From: an uncultured Lachnospiraceae bacterium | GTDB lineage: Bacteria; Bacillota; Clostridia; Lachnospirales; Lachnospiraceae | DNA length: 64,000 nucleotides | Assembly (NCBI GenBank): GCA_947650155.1 | Contig: CANSUS010000001.1 | Coordinates: 1-64,000 of the forward strand | Reading direction: 5' to 3' | In this document: piece by piece, positions 32,876 through 59,666 of the stretch | How positions within the stretch are numbered: the stretch's first letter is position 1 | Layout: each line of letters begins with the position of its first letter | Program-made: the position numbers and the translations under genes | Notes under the pieces: generated by a model | What the model saw: the letters and a program-made list of their open reading frames with translations, nothing else | Databases searched by the model: none | What the model was told of the DNA's origin: nothing

Positions 32876-35188
32876 TTATTTTTTATTTTTTCTCCTGTTT
32901 CCCGTACCTGCTTTTTTCTTAATAGTATTTTGTCCTGTGCCGGTTGTTTTTTTGGAAACGTTAGTCGTTTTCTTTTTAACGGGGACGGATACTTTCCGGT
33001 ATTCAAAAATACTGACAGACAGCGGCGCAGATTTCATTGTAATTAAAAAGGGACGTCCGTCGTATTCTTCTTCTTGTGTCAGTCTTGCCCTGCTGTTCAC
33101 CCGGCCTTCTCCGCCGAAGGCTTTGTCATCCGTATTCAATATTTCCTTATAACTTCCTTCATAGGGAACTCCGATCGTAAATTCCTTTTCCACATTAGCA
33201 AAATTGGCAACGACTAACAGAGCGTCTTCTCTGTTTTCTCCTTTTCTCATAAAGGAGACCATACAGTCGTTTGCGGATATACAATTTAGCCATTCAAATC
33301 CTTTGGGAGAATGGTCCAGAGTATGGAGCGCGGGGCATTTTGTATACAGTTCATTCAGCCTCTTTACTAAATTTGCCATGCCTTGATGTTCAGGGATATC
33401 AAGTAATTCCCATTCTACGCTTCTGTTTTCGTTCCATTCGTCGAATTCTGCAATATCCTGTCCCATAAATAACAGTTTTTTGCCTGGATGCGTAAAGAAA
33501 AATCCGTATGCGGCCTTTAAATTGTTAAATTTATCTTTTCTTTCTCCCGGCATTTTTCCGACCAAAGTAGCTTTGCCGTGTACAACTTCGTCATGGGACA
33601 GCACCAGCATAAATTTTTCACTGTAATTATAGATCATGCTGAAAGTAAGTTCGCCGTGATGATGTGCCCTGAAATACGGGTCATATGACATATATCCAAG
33701 GAAATCGTTCATCCATCCCATATTCCATTTTATGTCAAAGCCCAGTCCGTCGTCGTCAAGAGCGCCTGTTATTTTAGGCCATGCCGTGGACTCCTCCGCT
33801 ATAGTAACAACGCCTTTATTTCTTTTATGCATGATAGAATTTAAATGTTTGATAAATTCAATGGCCTCCAGATTTTCATTACCGCCGTATATATTCGCAA
33901 CCCATTCTCCGTCATTCTTACCATAATCAAGGTACAGCATGGAAGCAACCGCATCCATACGGATTCCGTCTGCATGGAACTGTTCTACCCAGTACAGAGC
34001 GTTGGCAATCAGATAATTTGTTACCTGCGGTCTTCCATAATTATAGATCAGTGTCCCCCAATGCGGATGGAAACCTTTCCTTGGGTCCAGATGTTCATAA
34101 AGGCAGGTTCCGTCAAAATTAGAAAGCCCGTAAGTATCTCTGGGAAAATGTGCCGGCACCCAATCCAGAATCACACCGATTCCCGCTTTATGCAGCTCAT
34201 TGATCATAAACCGAAAATCATCAGGCGTGCCATAACGCGCTGTTGGCGCATAATAACCAATTACCTGATAGCCCCAGGAACCGTCGAAAGGATGCTCCAT
34301 TATCGGCATCAATTCCACATGGGTATACCCCATTTCTTTTACGTATCTGATTAACTCCGGAGCAATCTCCCTGTAATTATTATATTCCTTTTCATCGTCT
34401 TTTTTCATAAAAGAATTTAAATACAGTTCGTAAATGCTCATCGGCGCTATTTCAGAGTCAAATTCTTTTCTGTCTGCAAGCCATTTTGCATCTTCCCATT
34501 TAAATTCCTGTACACTTGCTACAATGGAGGCAGTATCAGGACGGAGCTGCTGTCTGAATGCATAAGGATCTGCTTTCAAATACGTAAGACCGCCCTTTAC
34601 CTTAAGTTCAAATTTATAATTATCCCCTTCTTTTGCTTCCGGAATAAAAATTTCAAAAATGCCGGAATCCCAGAGCCGGCGCATCTGATGGGTTCTGCCA
34701 TCCCAATGATTAAAATCTCCCACCGTGCTGACACGCATGGCGTTAGGCGCCCATACTGCAAAGTATACCCCGGAAACGCCGTCGATGGTCATCGGATGTG
34801 CGCCTAATTTCTCGTAGATGGTATAATGGATTCCCGCCTCAAAACGGTCAGTATCCTGTCTGGTAATCTGTTCTTTAAACCGGTAAGGGTCTTCTACTTT
34901 TCTTACAGTACCGTCTTTTTCCGTTATTTCAAACAAATACTCCGTCACATTTTTTTCTGGTACGAGCGCTGCAAAAAATCCTTCTTCATCTGCCATTTCC
35001 ATTTTAATCTTTTCTCTGGATTCCTTTAACAAAAGGACTGCTTTTTCAGCTCCCGGCTGATAAGTCTGGATCAGGGTGGAAGCGCCGGCAGGATGAGCGC
35101 CCAAAACAGCATGCGGGTTATCGGATTCCGCAAAAACAATATCTTCTATTACCGGCCAATTCATATGTTTATATAATTTACTATTCAT
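32876..35188 (-). CDS. glgB: 1,4-alpha-glucan branching enzyme
   Basis: This protein has about 770 residues. An N-terminal CBM48 domain (GVSGVYFAVWAPNAMRVSTVG) is followed by a GH13 domain with the catalytic set intact: GIRMDAV (nucleophile), IAEEST (acid) and LSHDEVVHGK. It adds alpha-1,6 branches to glycogen. The ATG at 35188 has GGAG six bases upstream; the frame upstream to 35221 is not needed. The last 30 residues are very rich in lysine and threonine (VPVKKKTTNV to RRKNKK), which is beyond the normal end. Other glycogen genes (glgA, glgC, glgP) are not in the window. Confidence 0.93.
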   Translation of the reverse strand: MNSKLYKHMNWPVIEDIVFAESDNPHAVLGAHPAGASTLIQTYQPGAEKAVLLLKESREKIKMEMADEEGFFAALVPEKNVTEYLFEITEKDGTVRKVEDPYRFKEQITRQDTDRFEAGIHYTIYEKLGAHPMTIDGVSGVYFAVWAPNAMRVSTVGDFNHWDGRTHQMRRLWDSGIFEIFIPEAKEGDNYKFELKVKGGLTYLKADPYAFRQQLRPDTASIVASVQEFKWEDAKWLADRKEFDSEIAPMSIYELYLNSFMKKDDEKEYNNYREIAPELIRYVKEMGYTHVELMPIMEHPFDGSWGYQVIGYYAPTARYGTPDDFRFMINELHKAGIGVILDWVPAHFPRDTYGLSNFDGTCLYEHLDPRKGFHPHWGTLIYNYGRPQVTNYLIANALYWVEQFHADGIRMDAVASMLYLDYGKNDGEWVANIYGGNENLEAIEFIKHLNSIMHKRNKGVVTIAEESTAWPKITGALDDDGLGFDIKWNMGWMNDFLGYMSYDPYFRAHHHGELTFSMIYNYSEKFMLVLSHDEVVHGKATLVGKMPGERKDKFNNLKAAYGFFFTHPGKKLLFMGQDIAEFDEWNENRSVEWELLDIPEHQGMANLVKRLNELYTKCPALHTLDHSPKGFEWLNCISANDCMVSFMRKGENREDALLVVANFANVEKEFTIGVPYEGSYKEILNTDDKAFGGEGRVNSRARLTQEEEYDGRPFLITMKSAPLSVSIFEYRKVSVPVKKKTTNVSKKTTGTGQNTIKKKAGTGNRRKNKK

Positions 35189-35220
35189 GATTAACTCCAA
35201 TCCGTCTGTTATTACAGACA

Positions 35221-36453
35221 TTAAAATTTATGTATAAAAAGTCCGCTCCTGAGTTTCGGCTCAAACCATGTGGATTTGGGCGGCATCAAAAGTCCGGCAT
35301 CTGCTACTGCAAAAAGCTCTTTAATATCCGTAGGATACATGGAAAAGGCAATCCCATCATATTTATCTGCACGTCTTTCCAACTCCTCCAATCCACGGAT
35401 GCCGCCGACAAATTCAATGCGCTCATTCGTTTTTGGATCATCGATTTGCAGAAGGGGACAGAGTATGTGATCCTGTAAAATGGAAACATCCAGCGCTTCT
35501 ACCGGATTTTCACTTCTTTTTCCCAGGAAGGAAAGACGGTACCATTCTCCGTCAATATACATTCCTATGTTTCCCCTGCTGTCAGGTCTGCAGGCTTCTG
35601 CTCCATTGGGGGTAATAGAGAATGTTTTTTGAATCTGTTCAAAGAGTTCCTCTCTGCTTTTTCCGTTTTTATCCTTTATGACTCTGTTATAATCCATAAT
35701 CATCAGTTCCTTATCCGGGAACAAAACGGAAAGAAAGCGATTATACTCTTCTTCTCCGGTATGGTGTGGATTCTGTGCTTTTCGCTTTAATCCGACTTTT
35801 ACTGCAGAGGCGCATCGGTGATGTCCGTCTGCAATATAAATACTGTCCATAGCGGCAAATGCATCTGTAATTGTTTTTGCTTTTTGAGGATCGGAAATGA
35901 CCCATACTTTATGTGTAATACCATCTTCTGAAACAAAGTCATATTCCGGCGCTTCTTTTTTTATCTCCGCTGTAAGCTGATCTATCTTTTCGCTGCTGCG
36001 GTATGCCAAAAAGATGGGACCTGTCTGCGCGCTGCATGCGTCCACATGCCGAATACGGTCTTCTTCTTTATCGGCCCTTGTATTTTCATGCTTTTTGATT
36101 ACCTGATTACAATAGTCTTCTATGCTGGCACAGGCAACGATTCCCGTCTGACTGCGTCCATCCATAATTTGTTCATACAGATAATAACATTCTGTATGAT
36201 CCTGCATAAAATATTCCTGCTTTATCATTTCATTTAAAAGCTCTGCCGCTTTTTCATAAACACAGGAATCATAAGTATCTACGGTTTTTGGGAAATTTGT
36301 TTCAGCCCTGTCTATTTTCAAAAAGGAAAGGGGTTCCTTTGTCACTTCTGCCAGCGCTTCTTCCCTGTCGTAAACGTCGTAGGGCAGGGCTGCTATTTTC
36401 TTTTCCAGCCCTTTTTTGGGGCGGTATGCCTGAAACGGTTTGATCACTGCCAT
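35221..36453 (-). CDS. DUF1015 family protein (SerK/SbnI-like)
   Basis: This 410-residue protein begins MAVIKPFQAYRP and carries IADGHHRCASA (near residue 209), the conserved family motif. Relatives SerK (archaea) and SbnI (Staphylococcus) phosphorylate serine to O-phosphoserine with ADP or ATP. Whether this one does is inference. That serC and serA lie 2.4 kb away on the same strand supports a serine link, but an intervening plus-strand gene shows it is not in their operon. It heads a two-gene unit with glgB, which starts 32 bases after it, behind a strong promoter. Confidence 0.85.
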   Translation of the reverse strand: MAVIKPFQAYRPKKGLEKKIAALPYDVYDREEALAEVTKEPLSFLKIDRAETNFPKTVDTYDSCVYEKAAELLNEMIKQEYFMQDHTECYYLYEQIMDGRSQTGIVACASIEDYCNQVIKKHENTRADKEEDRIRHVDACSAQTGPIFLAYRSSEKIDQLTAEIKKEAPEYDFVSEDGITHKVWVISDPQKAKTITDAFAAMDSIYIADGHHRCASAVKVGLKRKAQNPHHTGEEEYNRFLSVLFPDKELMIMDYNRVIKDKNGKSREELFEQIQKTFSITPNGAEACRPDSRGNIGMYIDGEWYRLSFLGKRSENPVEALDVSILQDHILCPLLQIDDPKTNERIEFVGGIRGLEELERRADKYDGIAFSMYPTDIKELFAVADAGLLMPPKSTWFEPKLRSGLFIHKF

Positions 36454-56148: not shown

Positions 56149-56182
56149 GAAGAAAAGCCTGTTATGAAACAGGCTTTTCTTC
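56149..56182. terminator. Terminator after potD, overlapping a convergent gene
   Basis: GAAGAAAAGCCTGTT (56149-56163) pairs with AACAGGCTTTTCTTC (56168-56182). The stem contains the stop codon and last codons of the convergent Cys/Asp/Arg-rich gene. T-rich arms suit both directions. Confidence 0.85.
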
Positions 56183-56500
56183 ACATCCACAAGTATCTGC
56201 AAAAGGAGTAAACGGTCTGGCTTCGGGACCTCTGCCGCAGCCGCAATCCCGGTCGCGGTCTCTGTCACGTCCTCTGTCACAGTCGTCATCGCGGTCACGT
56301 CCTCTGTCATGATCGCAGCCGCAGTCTCTGTCGCGGTCGCGTCCTCTGTCACAATCATCATCACGGTCGCGTCCTCTGTCGTTGTCACAGCCGCCTCTAT
56401 CTCTTCCGCAGCCACATCCATTATTGCAGCCGCAATCTCCCTGCAAATTTCCGTTTCCGCCGCAACAGGCAAGTAAAAGTAATAACCAAAGACAATTCAT
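56162..56500 (-). CDS. Cys/Asp/Arg-rich low-complexity repeat protein
   Basis: This 112-residue protein begins MNCLWLLLLLACCGGNGN, a short hydrophobic start with a CC motif, and then is almost only Asp, Arg, Cys and Gly. A 24-residue unit, starting DRGRDRDDDCDRG and ending DRDCGCDH, is repeated about twice from residue 41 on (72-base DNA period). CGC and DCGC motifs suggest a metal or disulfide-rich fold. Function unknown. The ribosome binding site is weak, but the frame is kept through the repeats. It overlaps a terminator at its 3' end. Confidence 0.6.
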   Translation of the reverse strand: MNCLWLLLLLACCGGNGNLQGDCGCNNGCGCGRDRGGCDNDRGRDRDDDCDRGRDRDRDCGCDHDRGRDRDDDCDRGRDRDRDRDCGCGRGPEARPFTPFADTCGCEEKPVS

Positions 56501-56556: not shown

Positions 56557-57084
56557 TTACAAAACTTCTTTTTTTATATATCGAAAAGTCTTCTCCTCTC
56601 CATTTTTTGCAAGCATATAAAGCAGTTTTTCCAAAAGTTTTTTCGTATCTTCATGCATGAGTATGGAATCTTTTCCCTTATTGTAGTATTTAAGAGGCGA
56701 TGCATTTGTATAGTTTTCTTTTAAATAGACTTTACTTGCTGCTATCCGGTCCATAAACATTTCCACCACATATTTTTCAGGCATGGGCGCCGGTGCCATT
56801 CCTCCAGGGATAGCGTTCAGACTGTAATCAATCCAATATTCATAATGATGCTTATTTCTTCCTTTATGATGCAGCCACGCTCCGGAATAACCGATTGCTT
56901 CCCGTTCTGCATTGTTTGGACTGCGTGTTCCCTGATAGTATTTTGCACCGACAAGAAATTCACTTGGAGAATATTTGGACAGATCATGCAATATGCCCTG
57001 CTTATAAAGTCCTACTTTGAAACAACCCTTTGCTACCAGATATTTATGGTATGTGATTGTTTGAAAGTGCTGCCATATCTTCAT
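56557..57084 (-). CDS. DUF5662 family protein
   Basis: This 175-residue protein resembles a family of unknown function. LYKQGILHDLSKYSPSEF (26-43) and AWLHHKGRNKHHYEYW (69-84) are rich in His and Asp, an arrangement like HD-type metal-binding enzymes. The His/Asp residues could bind a metal. GGAGTAGAA precedes the ATG. It lies 30 bases after the GH13-like gene on the same strand. A hydrolase role is only inference. Confidence 0.75.
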   Translation of the reverse strand: MKIWQHFQTITYHKYLVAKGCFKVGLYKQGILHDLSKYSPSEFLVGAKYYQGTRSPNNAEREAIGYSGAWLHHKGRNKHHYEYWIDYSLNAIPGGMAPAPMPEKYVVEMFMDRIAASKVYLKENYTNASPLKYYNKGKDSILMHEDTKKLLEKLLYMLAKNGEEKTFRYIKKEVL

Positions 57085-57114: not shown

Positions 57115-59004
57115 TTATTTTGATATATAAATAACAATTGTTCTTGGCTTTAATTCTATTTCCTGCCCCATCTCTGCCTTTTCAAGATTATCTTCTGCTT
57201 CAGGTATTGGCGTCGTTTCTTCTGTAGTAGATAATAAGTACCAGTTTTTTCCTTTTGTTAATTTGGGGAGAGCCAGTTTCCGTTTCTGCCAGTGCATATT
57301 ATAAGCAATAAAGAAACTGTTATCGTCCTCTTTCCGATTCTTCTTTCCGTATGCACCTGCATACAAAATTCCGACATGGCGGTTATAATTTTCAAGCTCA
57401 GGACGCCATGCCTGGCTTCCATGATAGGATACATCAGGGTATCCACAGGCCAATGTATCCATTAAATGCAAGGTTCGGACGCCGTGCAATACAGGATGTG
57501 CCTTTCTGAATGCAATCAGACTCTTTACATATTCAAACCAGTCTCTGTTCTTTTCAAGTCCCGTCCAATTGAGCCAGCTTATTTCATTATCCAGGCAATA
57601 AGGATTGTTATTCCCTTTCTGTGAATTACAAAATTCATCTCCTGCCAAAAACAAAGGCGACGCCTGAGATAAAAATAATAAATTAAAAGCATTCTGCATT
57701 TGTTTTCTCCGCAAGGACAAAACAGCTTTTTTTCTGCTGACGCCTTCTACTCCACAGTTCCAACTGTAATTAAACTCATTGCCGTCTCTGTTTTCTTCCC
57801 CATTTCCCTGATTGTGCTTTCTTTCATAAGAAACAAGATCCATCAGTGTAAATCCATAGTAATTCGTAATATATTGTACAATTCCATGTGTGTCACTGTT
57901 ATGGCGTAAATGCCCCAGAACTGCCGGCAGCATATTTTCATCGCCTTTCAGATACCGACGCATGTCGTACATAAAGTCATCCCTGTAAGAAGCCAGATTC
58001 CGATAGGCAGGAATCTCTTCTTCCCTGTAAATCTCCTCATATGGAAAAGAATAATAAAACAGCTTGGTATCTTTTAAAAGAGCTTCTGTCGCAAGAAGAA
58101 TCAGCGGCATATTATCTCCTTTCAGGTGAAATCCGTCCACATGATAGGTTACCCGCCAAAATTTAAGTACATCCAGAATAAAGCCCGGATTCTCTTTTTC
58201 AAAGTAAAACTGCATGATTACTTCTATTCCATTTTTATGGAGTTCTTTTATCATATGCATAAATTCCGATGATGCCTGATTTGGTACAGAAGCGAAGGAA
58301 GCTTTCGGCATAAAATAATGACACTCTTTTGTATATCCCCAATAATTGAGCTTGTCCCTCCGTTTTTCTTTTGTAAGATCTTTGGCATACTGTTTCGCCG
58401 CCTCTTCCATTGTAAGAGGTGTCTCTTCTTCATATGTATTTTCTTTGAATTCATACGCCGGCATCAGTTCGATTGCCGTAATTCCAAGTTCCTGCAAGTA
58501 AGGAATCTTCTCTACTATTCCCATGAATGTTCCACGGTGCGACACCTTGGAAGAACTGTGCATTGTAAATCCTCTTACGTGCATACAGTAAAAATAACTG
58601 TCTTCATAAGGCGTTTTTAAAATATGATCCTGTTCCCAATCAAAATCCGATGACAGCATTCCATAATAAATGTCTTTCTGTTTCACAGATTTACCCCATT
58701 TTTCACGTCCTGACATCTTTACGGCATAATCATCTTTGATCATATTGCCATCCGCATAAATCTGATATCTGCAATCCTGTATTTCCAGATCTGCAATATA
58801 CATACAGCTGATGTCTCCGACACGAAATGTCTCCGAAAAAGGAATTTTATATTTCTTTTCCTGCCCGTCTTTTGCTTTTATCCATAAAAATAAACCGCAT
58901 TCTCTTGCCTGTGGAATCTTTACTGCAATATTGATCCCGCTTTTATAACTGCTAAGACCTTTGGGTAATATATTTCCCTGTTCAATGTTTAATTTAAGCT
59001 TCAT
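57115..59004 (-). CDS. GH13 isoamylase/GlgX-like protein, probably catalytically inactive
   Basis: This 629-residue protein has the architecture of isoamylase/GlgX, with an N-terminal beta domain (1-100), a (beta/alpha)8 barrel (about 135-500), and a C-terminal beta domain. GFTLMDLVSYERKHNQGNGE and NRDG...SWNCGVEG match GlgX nearly exactly. Yet the catalytic positions differ: region I reads GIEVIMQFYF (259-268), region II VDGFHLKGDN (289-298, Lys295 where the nucleophile Asp should be), region III LFYYSFP (no Glu), and region IV NYYGFTL where AHDGFTL is expected. It should bind but not cleave glucans. GGAGACAGTTT precedes the ATG. Confidence 0.85.
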   Translation of the reverse strand: MKLKLNIEQGNILPKGLSSYKSGINIAVKIPQARECGLFLWIKAKDGQEKKYKIPFSETFRVGDISCMYIADLEIQDCRYQIYADGNMIKDDYAVKMSGREKWGKSVKQKDIYYGMLSSDFDWEQDHILKTPYEDSYFYCMHVRGFTMHSSSKVSHRGTFMGIVEKIPYLQELGITAIELMPAYEFKENTYEEETPLTMEEAAKQYAKDLTKEKRRDKLNYWGYTKECHYFMPKASFASVPNQASSEFMHMIKELHKNGIEVIMQFYFEKENPGFILDVLKFWRVTYHVDGFHLKGDNMPLILLATEALLKDTKLFYYSFPYEEIYREEEIPAYRNLASYRDDFMYDMRRYLKGDENMLPAVLGHLRHNSDTHGIVQYITNYYGFTLMDLVSYERKHNQGNGEENRDGNEFNYSWNCGVEGVSRKKAVLSLRRKQMQNAFNLLFLSQASPLFLAGDEFCNSQKGNNNPYCLDNEISWLNWTGLEKNRDWFEYVKSLIAFRKAHPVLHGVRTLHLMDTLACGYPDVSYHGSQAWRPELENYNRHVGILYAGAYGKKNRKEDDNSFFIAYNMHWQKRKLALPKLTKGKNWYLLSTTEETTPIPEAEDNLEKAEMGQEIELKPRTIVIYISK

Positions 59005-59318: not shown

Positions 59319-59375
59319 ATGGGAATAAAATTGGAAAAGGATCTTAATCGCAAGGAAGAAATAACAGAGGAAGAA

Positions 59376-59666
59376 ATGACTGTAGAACTGGAATTGGAAG
59401 ATGGCAAGGTTGTAACCTGTGCAGTTGTTACTATCATGACTGTACAGAAGAAAGATTATATTGTTCTTCTTCCTTTAGACGAGAATGGAGAAAATGAAGA
59501 CGGTGAAGTATGGTTCTATCGTTATTATGAAGATGAAAAGGATGAAAATGCCGAACCGGAATTAGAATATATCGATGATGACGAAGAATATGAAATGGTT
59601 GCAGACGCTTTTGATGAATTCCTTGACAATGCAGAATTTGATGAAATTGTAGAGCCTGAGCAATAG
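59376..59666 (+). CDS. DUF1292 family protein
   Basis: This small acidic protein matches the DUF1292 family, common in Firmicutes and of unknown function. ATG at 59376 has AGAGGAAGAA upstream and gives 96 residues, near the family's usual size; the frame extends back to 59319 inside the structured leader with no ribosome binding site. The C-terminal third is nearly all Asp and Glu. It is usually found near ruvX or fur-type genes in Clostridia, but not here. Confidence 0.8.
   Translation: MTVELELEDGKVVTCAVVTIMTVQKKDYIVLLPLDENGENEDGEVWFYRYYEDEKDENAEPELEYIDDDEEYEMVADAFDEFLDNAEFDEIVEPEQ

Follow-up and report, generated by a model that had tools for sequence, protein, structure and literature searches.

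A 64,000-nucleotide window from an uncultured Lachnospiraceae bacterium (positions 1 to 64,000 of contig CANSUS010000001.1, the whole stretch analysed here) carries, on its minus strand at 57115..59004, an open reading frame for a 629 aa homologue of the GlgX/isoamylase (GH13_11) proteins in which all of the catalytic residues are replaced. The question raised by this locus is whether the gene is decaying, encodes an enzyme of unusual chemistry or is maintained as a pseudoenzyme, and what a GlgX without catalytic residues might do for the cell.

A GlgX homologue that has lost its catalytic site

The reading frame begins with ATG, is intact as first described and has a GGAGA-type ribosome-binding site just 5′ of it. 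The protein matches the GlgX model TIGR02100 with 279.1 bits (E = 6e-83), far below the curated cut-off of 640.9 bits. Its homology to Escherichia coli GlgX (2wsk), Streptomyces venezuelae GlgX (7u39) and TreX (2vnc) spans the full length and includes the three-domain fold of beta-sandwich, barrel and C-terminal beta domain, as judged from a predicted structure of moderate quality (built with 10 sequences; mean pLDDT 63.8, below 50 in the conserved loops). In Foldseek and VIA-align comparisons the model superposes along its full length on ISA1 and GlgX, with Z-scores of 27–30 over about 500 residues, and the closest solved relatives are ISA1 (Chlamydomonas and plants), TreX and GlgX. Residue 7 of the model aligns with residue 4 of E. 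coli GlgX, leaving no room for an extra N-terminal domain.

The initial annotation had located the signature regions by their GlgX-like flanks (GFTLMDLVSY, NGEENRDG and SWNCGVEG), all of which we found, and had claimed that every catalytic residue is replaced. This was borne out residue by residue when the protein was aligned with GlgX of E. coli, further active GlgX proteins and 138–146 homologues. Region I reads IMQFYFEKEN, where an active counterpart has ILDIVLNHSAE, so that E. coli D261, N265 and H266 correspond to Q265, E269 and K270. The nucleophile D336 is replaced by Lys295 (codon 58120..58122, minus strand), the acid/base E371 by Tyr318 (58051..58053, minus strand) and the transition-state pair H442-D443 by Tyr382-Tyr383 (57856..57861, minus strand); a further substitution in the alignment places H293 opposite R334. 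The Asp/Glu/Asp triad and the region I Asn-His pair of a catalytic GH13_11 protein are both missing from the window protein, and no alignment puts Asp, Glu and Asp at the catalytic positions.

The loss extends beyond point substitutions. The segment between regions I and II comprises 53 residues in 10 of 10 active GlgX proteins and 8–9 in all the dead sequences, a deletion of 44 residues; in the window protein the region I remnant and shortened loop lie at residues 263–275 (IMQFYFEKENPGF; 58180..58218, minus strand). Three smaller segments present in active GlgX are also absent from the dead family. For the 147 alignment columns that are invariant in ten active GlgX proteins, conservation in the dead set is at least 80% in 69 and below 40% in 56, and all eight catalytic-site columns belong to the latter (hypergeometric P = 3e-4). 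The nucleophile column now holds N (26%), L (13%), K (12%) or V (12%), with Asp in about 1% of dead sequences, and it ranks at the 83rd percentile of column entropy; for the acid/base column the figure is the 99th percentile. Both the catalytic −1 site and the loop that joins region I to region II in active enzymes are gone.

Continued enzymatic activity through some atypical set of catalytic residues is very unlikely. Two triad residues out of three do survive in five family members, and most sequences have an acidic residue or Gln at the region I position (E in 85, Q in 42 and D in 14 of 146 sequences), but the pocket contains no conserved candidate catalytic column, few columns vary more than those of the nucleophile and the acid/base, and the active-site loops are deleted.

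A single, maintained clade in Lachnospiraceae

We searched 200 Lachnospiraceae genomes (the GTDB family of the window), sampled at nearly one per genus. A match at E ≤ 1e-30 was present in 164 of them, a few of which probably carry active GlgX only (G004, G048, G053). The dead set consists of 146 distinct sequences, nearly all from Lachnospiraceae: the main match from 129 genomes, the window protein and 17 further loci, minus one partial sequence. Conservation percentages for the dead family are shares of these 146. None of the triad residues is kept in 97 sequences, one in 44 and two in 5; the intact triad occurs in none. In the tree, all dead sequences group in a single clade, separate from the ten active GlgX proteins (SH-aLRT 100). 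No dead homologue was found outside the family in 392 genomes of the class at E ≤ 1e-70, the sole matches there being two active GlgX proteins (L190 and L191).

Total loss of the catalytic residues is also what a decaying pseudogene or a sequence artefact might display. Such an origin, to which we attach virtually no probability, is refuted by the invariant motifs, by intact frames without internal stops in matches across about 160 genera, and by dN/dS values of about 0.04–0.10, obtained by most methods in three close pairs, which were used because dS is saturated between species of the same genus. The orthologues do not decay at random, and the original suggestion of a maintained pseudoenzyme is well supported by the 0 of 146 intact triads, the single clade, the dN/dS values and the intact frames. 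This is a real, maintained, family-wide pseudoenzyme, whose gene arose once, apparently inside Lachnospiraceae, and which selection has maintained ever since. None of the open-licence papers searched described a bacterial GlgX pseudoenzyme.

Glucan-facing residues outside the catalytic site are retained

The most conserved stretches of the dead protein are residues 401–420 and 461–480. They fall largely within two loops, one after region IV (residues 396–424, KHNQGNGEENRDGNEFNYSWNCGVEGVSR; 57733..57819, minus strand) and a second at residues 456–474 (DEFCNSQKGNNNPYCLDNE; 57583..57639, minus strand). Counterparts of N561 and W578 (maize ISA1) and of E470 (S. venezuelae GlgX) lie in the first loop, those of N628 (ISA1) and of N534 and Y536 (GlgX) in the second.

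In S. venezuelae GlgX bound to acarbose, the −1 site is lined by W222, Y224, H271, D342, E378, W380 and H449, while R212, E470, N534 and Y536 touch sugars beyond it (PMC9530166). We carried these positions to the dead family via E. coli GlgX, which gave no confident alignment for the R212 equivalent. Within the −1 site, the equivalents of W222 and Y224 are kept and those of H271, D342, E378, W380 and H449 are lost. The distal contacts are retained, as E403 (98%), N467 (100%) and Y469 (93%). Trp occupies position 403, the counterpart of the E470 contact, in roughly half of the ten active GlgX proteins examined, in contrast to the near-invariant Glu of the dead family; the comparison included active GlgX of Lachnospiraceae (L073 and L097).

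A second set of retained residues corresponds to the border lobe of maize ISA1, which contains four sweet-corn (su1) mutation sites, R504, N561, W578 and N628, of which W578 contacts glucan in the secondary site SBS2; border-lobe variants that are catalytically dead still alter polyglucan structure (PMC12510319). With the SWNCG motif of rice ISA1 as the reference for spacing, the equivalents in the dead family are R349 (98%), N398 (100%), W415 (90%) and N465 (100%). These border-lobe and distal subsite motifs are common to the dead family and to GlgX/isoamylase (2wsk, 7u39, TreX), and the border-lobe residues, which are conserved in active enzymes as well, may be conserved for folding or structure alone. 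Newly conserved residues are few (Q447, D516 and D524), so no new site is indicated. The retained border lobe and distal contacts are the main evidence suggesting that the dead protein binds glucan. A CBM48 module is a poor candidate for such binding, as the Pfam model CBM_48, scanned against 10 members, reaches E = 1 in just two, and one of these may be the active L070.

We also considered whether the protein could be a c-di-GMP receptor derived from GlgX, since S. venezuelae GlgX, which is among the nearest solved structures, binds c-di-GMP at an allosteric site (PMC9530166). We regard this as extremely unlikely and rejected it: residues 424–431 (E. coli numbering), which include the equivalent of Arg438, the contact of one subunit, are deleted in the dead family, and the site is limited to Streptomyces (PMC9530166).

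Neighbouring genes

Thirty bp downstream of the dead gene in the window lies a DUF5662 gene (56557..57084, minus strand; PF18907, 8e-41). A DUF5662 gene occupies the downstream position in 70 of 138 loci, always on the same strand and with a median gap of 14 bp, and a TraX gene does so in 36 of 138 (same strand, median gap 0 bp). The TraX-family membrane protein directly follows dead GlgX at L093:4075-4815 (minus strand) and at 35 other loci, and the order dead GlgX, TraX, DUF5662 recurs in 13 loci. On the other side, a divergent DUF1292 gene (59319..59666, plus strand) is a conserved neighbour, found in 48 of 138 loci, and the upstream order GltX-UvrD-(DUF1292) is common. In a subclade with shorter dead proteins of about 560–600 aa, a Peripla_BP_4 protein is encoded directly upstream, often overlapping (median −9 bp; L146, L148, L152, L159, L162–L170 and similar loci).

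The immediate neighbours DUF5662, TraX, UvrD and GltX are not glycogen genes, and the barrel might have been reused for a purpose outside glycogen metabolism, as a sensor, an adaptor or an enzyme on another ligand, tied to DUF5662 or TraX. The frequent same-strand placement of these two genes at short gaps is consistent with such reuse, as is the Peripla_BP_4 protein that precedes the dead gene in one subclade. We consider it rather doubtful, however: the conserved set consists of the old glucan-facing residues, with few new ones, and DUF5662 occurs widely among Clostridia that do not have the dead gene, is absent from some genomes that carry it (G224, G364, G402 and G198) and is unlinked to it in G419. 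On the same distribution DUF5662 was rejected as an obligate partner; it is a frequent neighbour and at most a possible partner of dead GlgX.

Eight aligned DUF5662 proteins share the invariants H13, H33-D34, H72-H73, H79-H80, D86 and D112, reminiscent of HD-type metal sites. The predicted fold has a pLDDT of 67.9, below 50 in the His-rich part, and gave no significant Foldseek match and no PDB sequence match; the putative HD-like pattern is best taken as a lead. Directly downstream of DUF5662 is a low-complexity open reading frame rich in Cys, Arg and Asp (CGCGRDRGGCDNDRGRDRDDDC...; 56162..56500, minus strand).

Association with glycogen genes

The genome from which the window derives encodes two type I pullulanases and two GlgB proteins, and no active GlgX was found in it. 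One branching enzyme GlgB (781 aa; TIGR01515, 839 bits; domains GlgB_N, CBM48, Alpha-amylase and Alpha-amylase_C) is encoded at 32876..35221 on the minus strand, 22 kb from dead GlgX with unrelated genes between, and is a candidate functional associate. It adjoins a DUF1015 gene, the two together occupying 32876..36453 (minus strand).

Among the 200 sampled genomes, GlgA is present in 194 and GlgB in 191. With GlgA near-universal, the presence or absence of the dead gene relative to it was uninformative. Among well-assembled or complete genomes, about 135 of 160 that have GlgB also carry the dead gene, compared with 1 of 5 that lack GlgB (P = 0.003), a result that hangs on the five GlgB-less genomes. 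Among the matches listed, at least 18 of about 90 genomes have GlgB no more than 45 kb from the dead gene, compared with at least 1 of about 125 for GlgA (P = 7e-7; counts read by eye, with approximate denominators). At one locus (L133), GlgB is found 7 bp downstream of the dead gene.

Plant ISA2, itself a GH13_11 protein without activity, functions in heteromers with ISA1 (PMC12510319), and in some genomes an active GlgX gene lies no more than 2 kb from the dead one (L097 and L073), which would fit an obligate subunit paired with active GlgX. Active GlgX is, however, present in only 57 of 200 genomes, and is missing from the window's own, whereas the dead gene is present in most; an ISA1/ISA2-type pair is therefore not the general mechanism, and obligate pairing was rejected as such on these counts. 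In addition, the extra N-terminal domain of ISA2 is absent here, and ISA2 lacks the SBS2 sequence (PMC12510319), whose W578 residue the dead family keeps. An ISA2-like obligate subunit is thus improbable.

Discussion

The dead family differs from GlgX/isoamylase in lacking the catalytic residues, in the 44-residue and further loop deletions and in scoring far below the GlgX cut-off. Plant ISA1 (rice, Arabidopsis, Chlamydomonas) provides the nearest solved structures, shares the conserved border lobe and offers the precedent that catalytically dead mutants still change polyglucan structure, although ISA1 itself is an active enzyme. The closest known system is plant ISA2, likewise a non-catalytic GH13_11 protein of alpha-polyglucan biology maintained by selection. 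The two differ in domain content, partner and retained site: the bacterial protein has no extra N-terminal beta-sandwich domain (629 aa versus about 870 aa), needs no active isoamylase partner and keeps the W578/SBS2 equivalent absent in ISA2. The loss is also apparently independent. The tree, which compares bacterial sequences, separates dead from active GlgX. GlgD offers a bacterial precedent as a regulatory paralogue of the glycogen enzyme GlgC (PMC10395257); it belongs to a different enzyme family and has GlgC as its partner, whereas dead GlgX has no known partner.

We favour the proposal of the initial annotation, a glycogen-binding scaffold or regulator, because the distal contacts and border lobe are conserved and because GlgB co-occurs with the dead gene and is loosely linked to it. 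Specifically, the protein is probably a non-catalytic, glucan-binding paralogue of GlgX/isoamylase in glycogen metabolism, perhaps acting with GlgB. The retained border lobe and channel wall would grip branches or chains of glycogen; without cutting, the bound protein could then shield or present branches, or recruit further enzymes of glycogen metabolism, with the branching enzyme GlgB as the likeliest, such that branching or turnover of the stored polymer would be tuned. Both the glucan binding and the GlgB partnership are suggested by residue conservation and gene association. More tentatively, Lachnospiraceae may possess an architectural glycogen subunit that acts with GlgB, an independent bacterial counterpart of plant ISA2 that has kept different glucan-binding sites.

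Homology-based catalogues could list the members of this large, uniformly dead clade of a major gut family as GlgX and so predict glycogen breakdown wrongly. The clade may also be a naturally occurring example of proteins that bind glucan and do not cut it, a role proposed for plant ISA1/ISA2, which deletion or point mutation in a bacterium could test.
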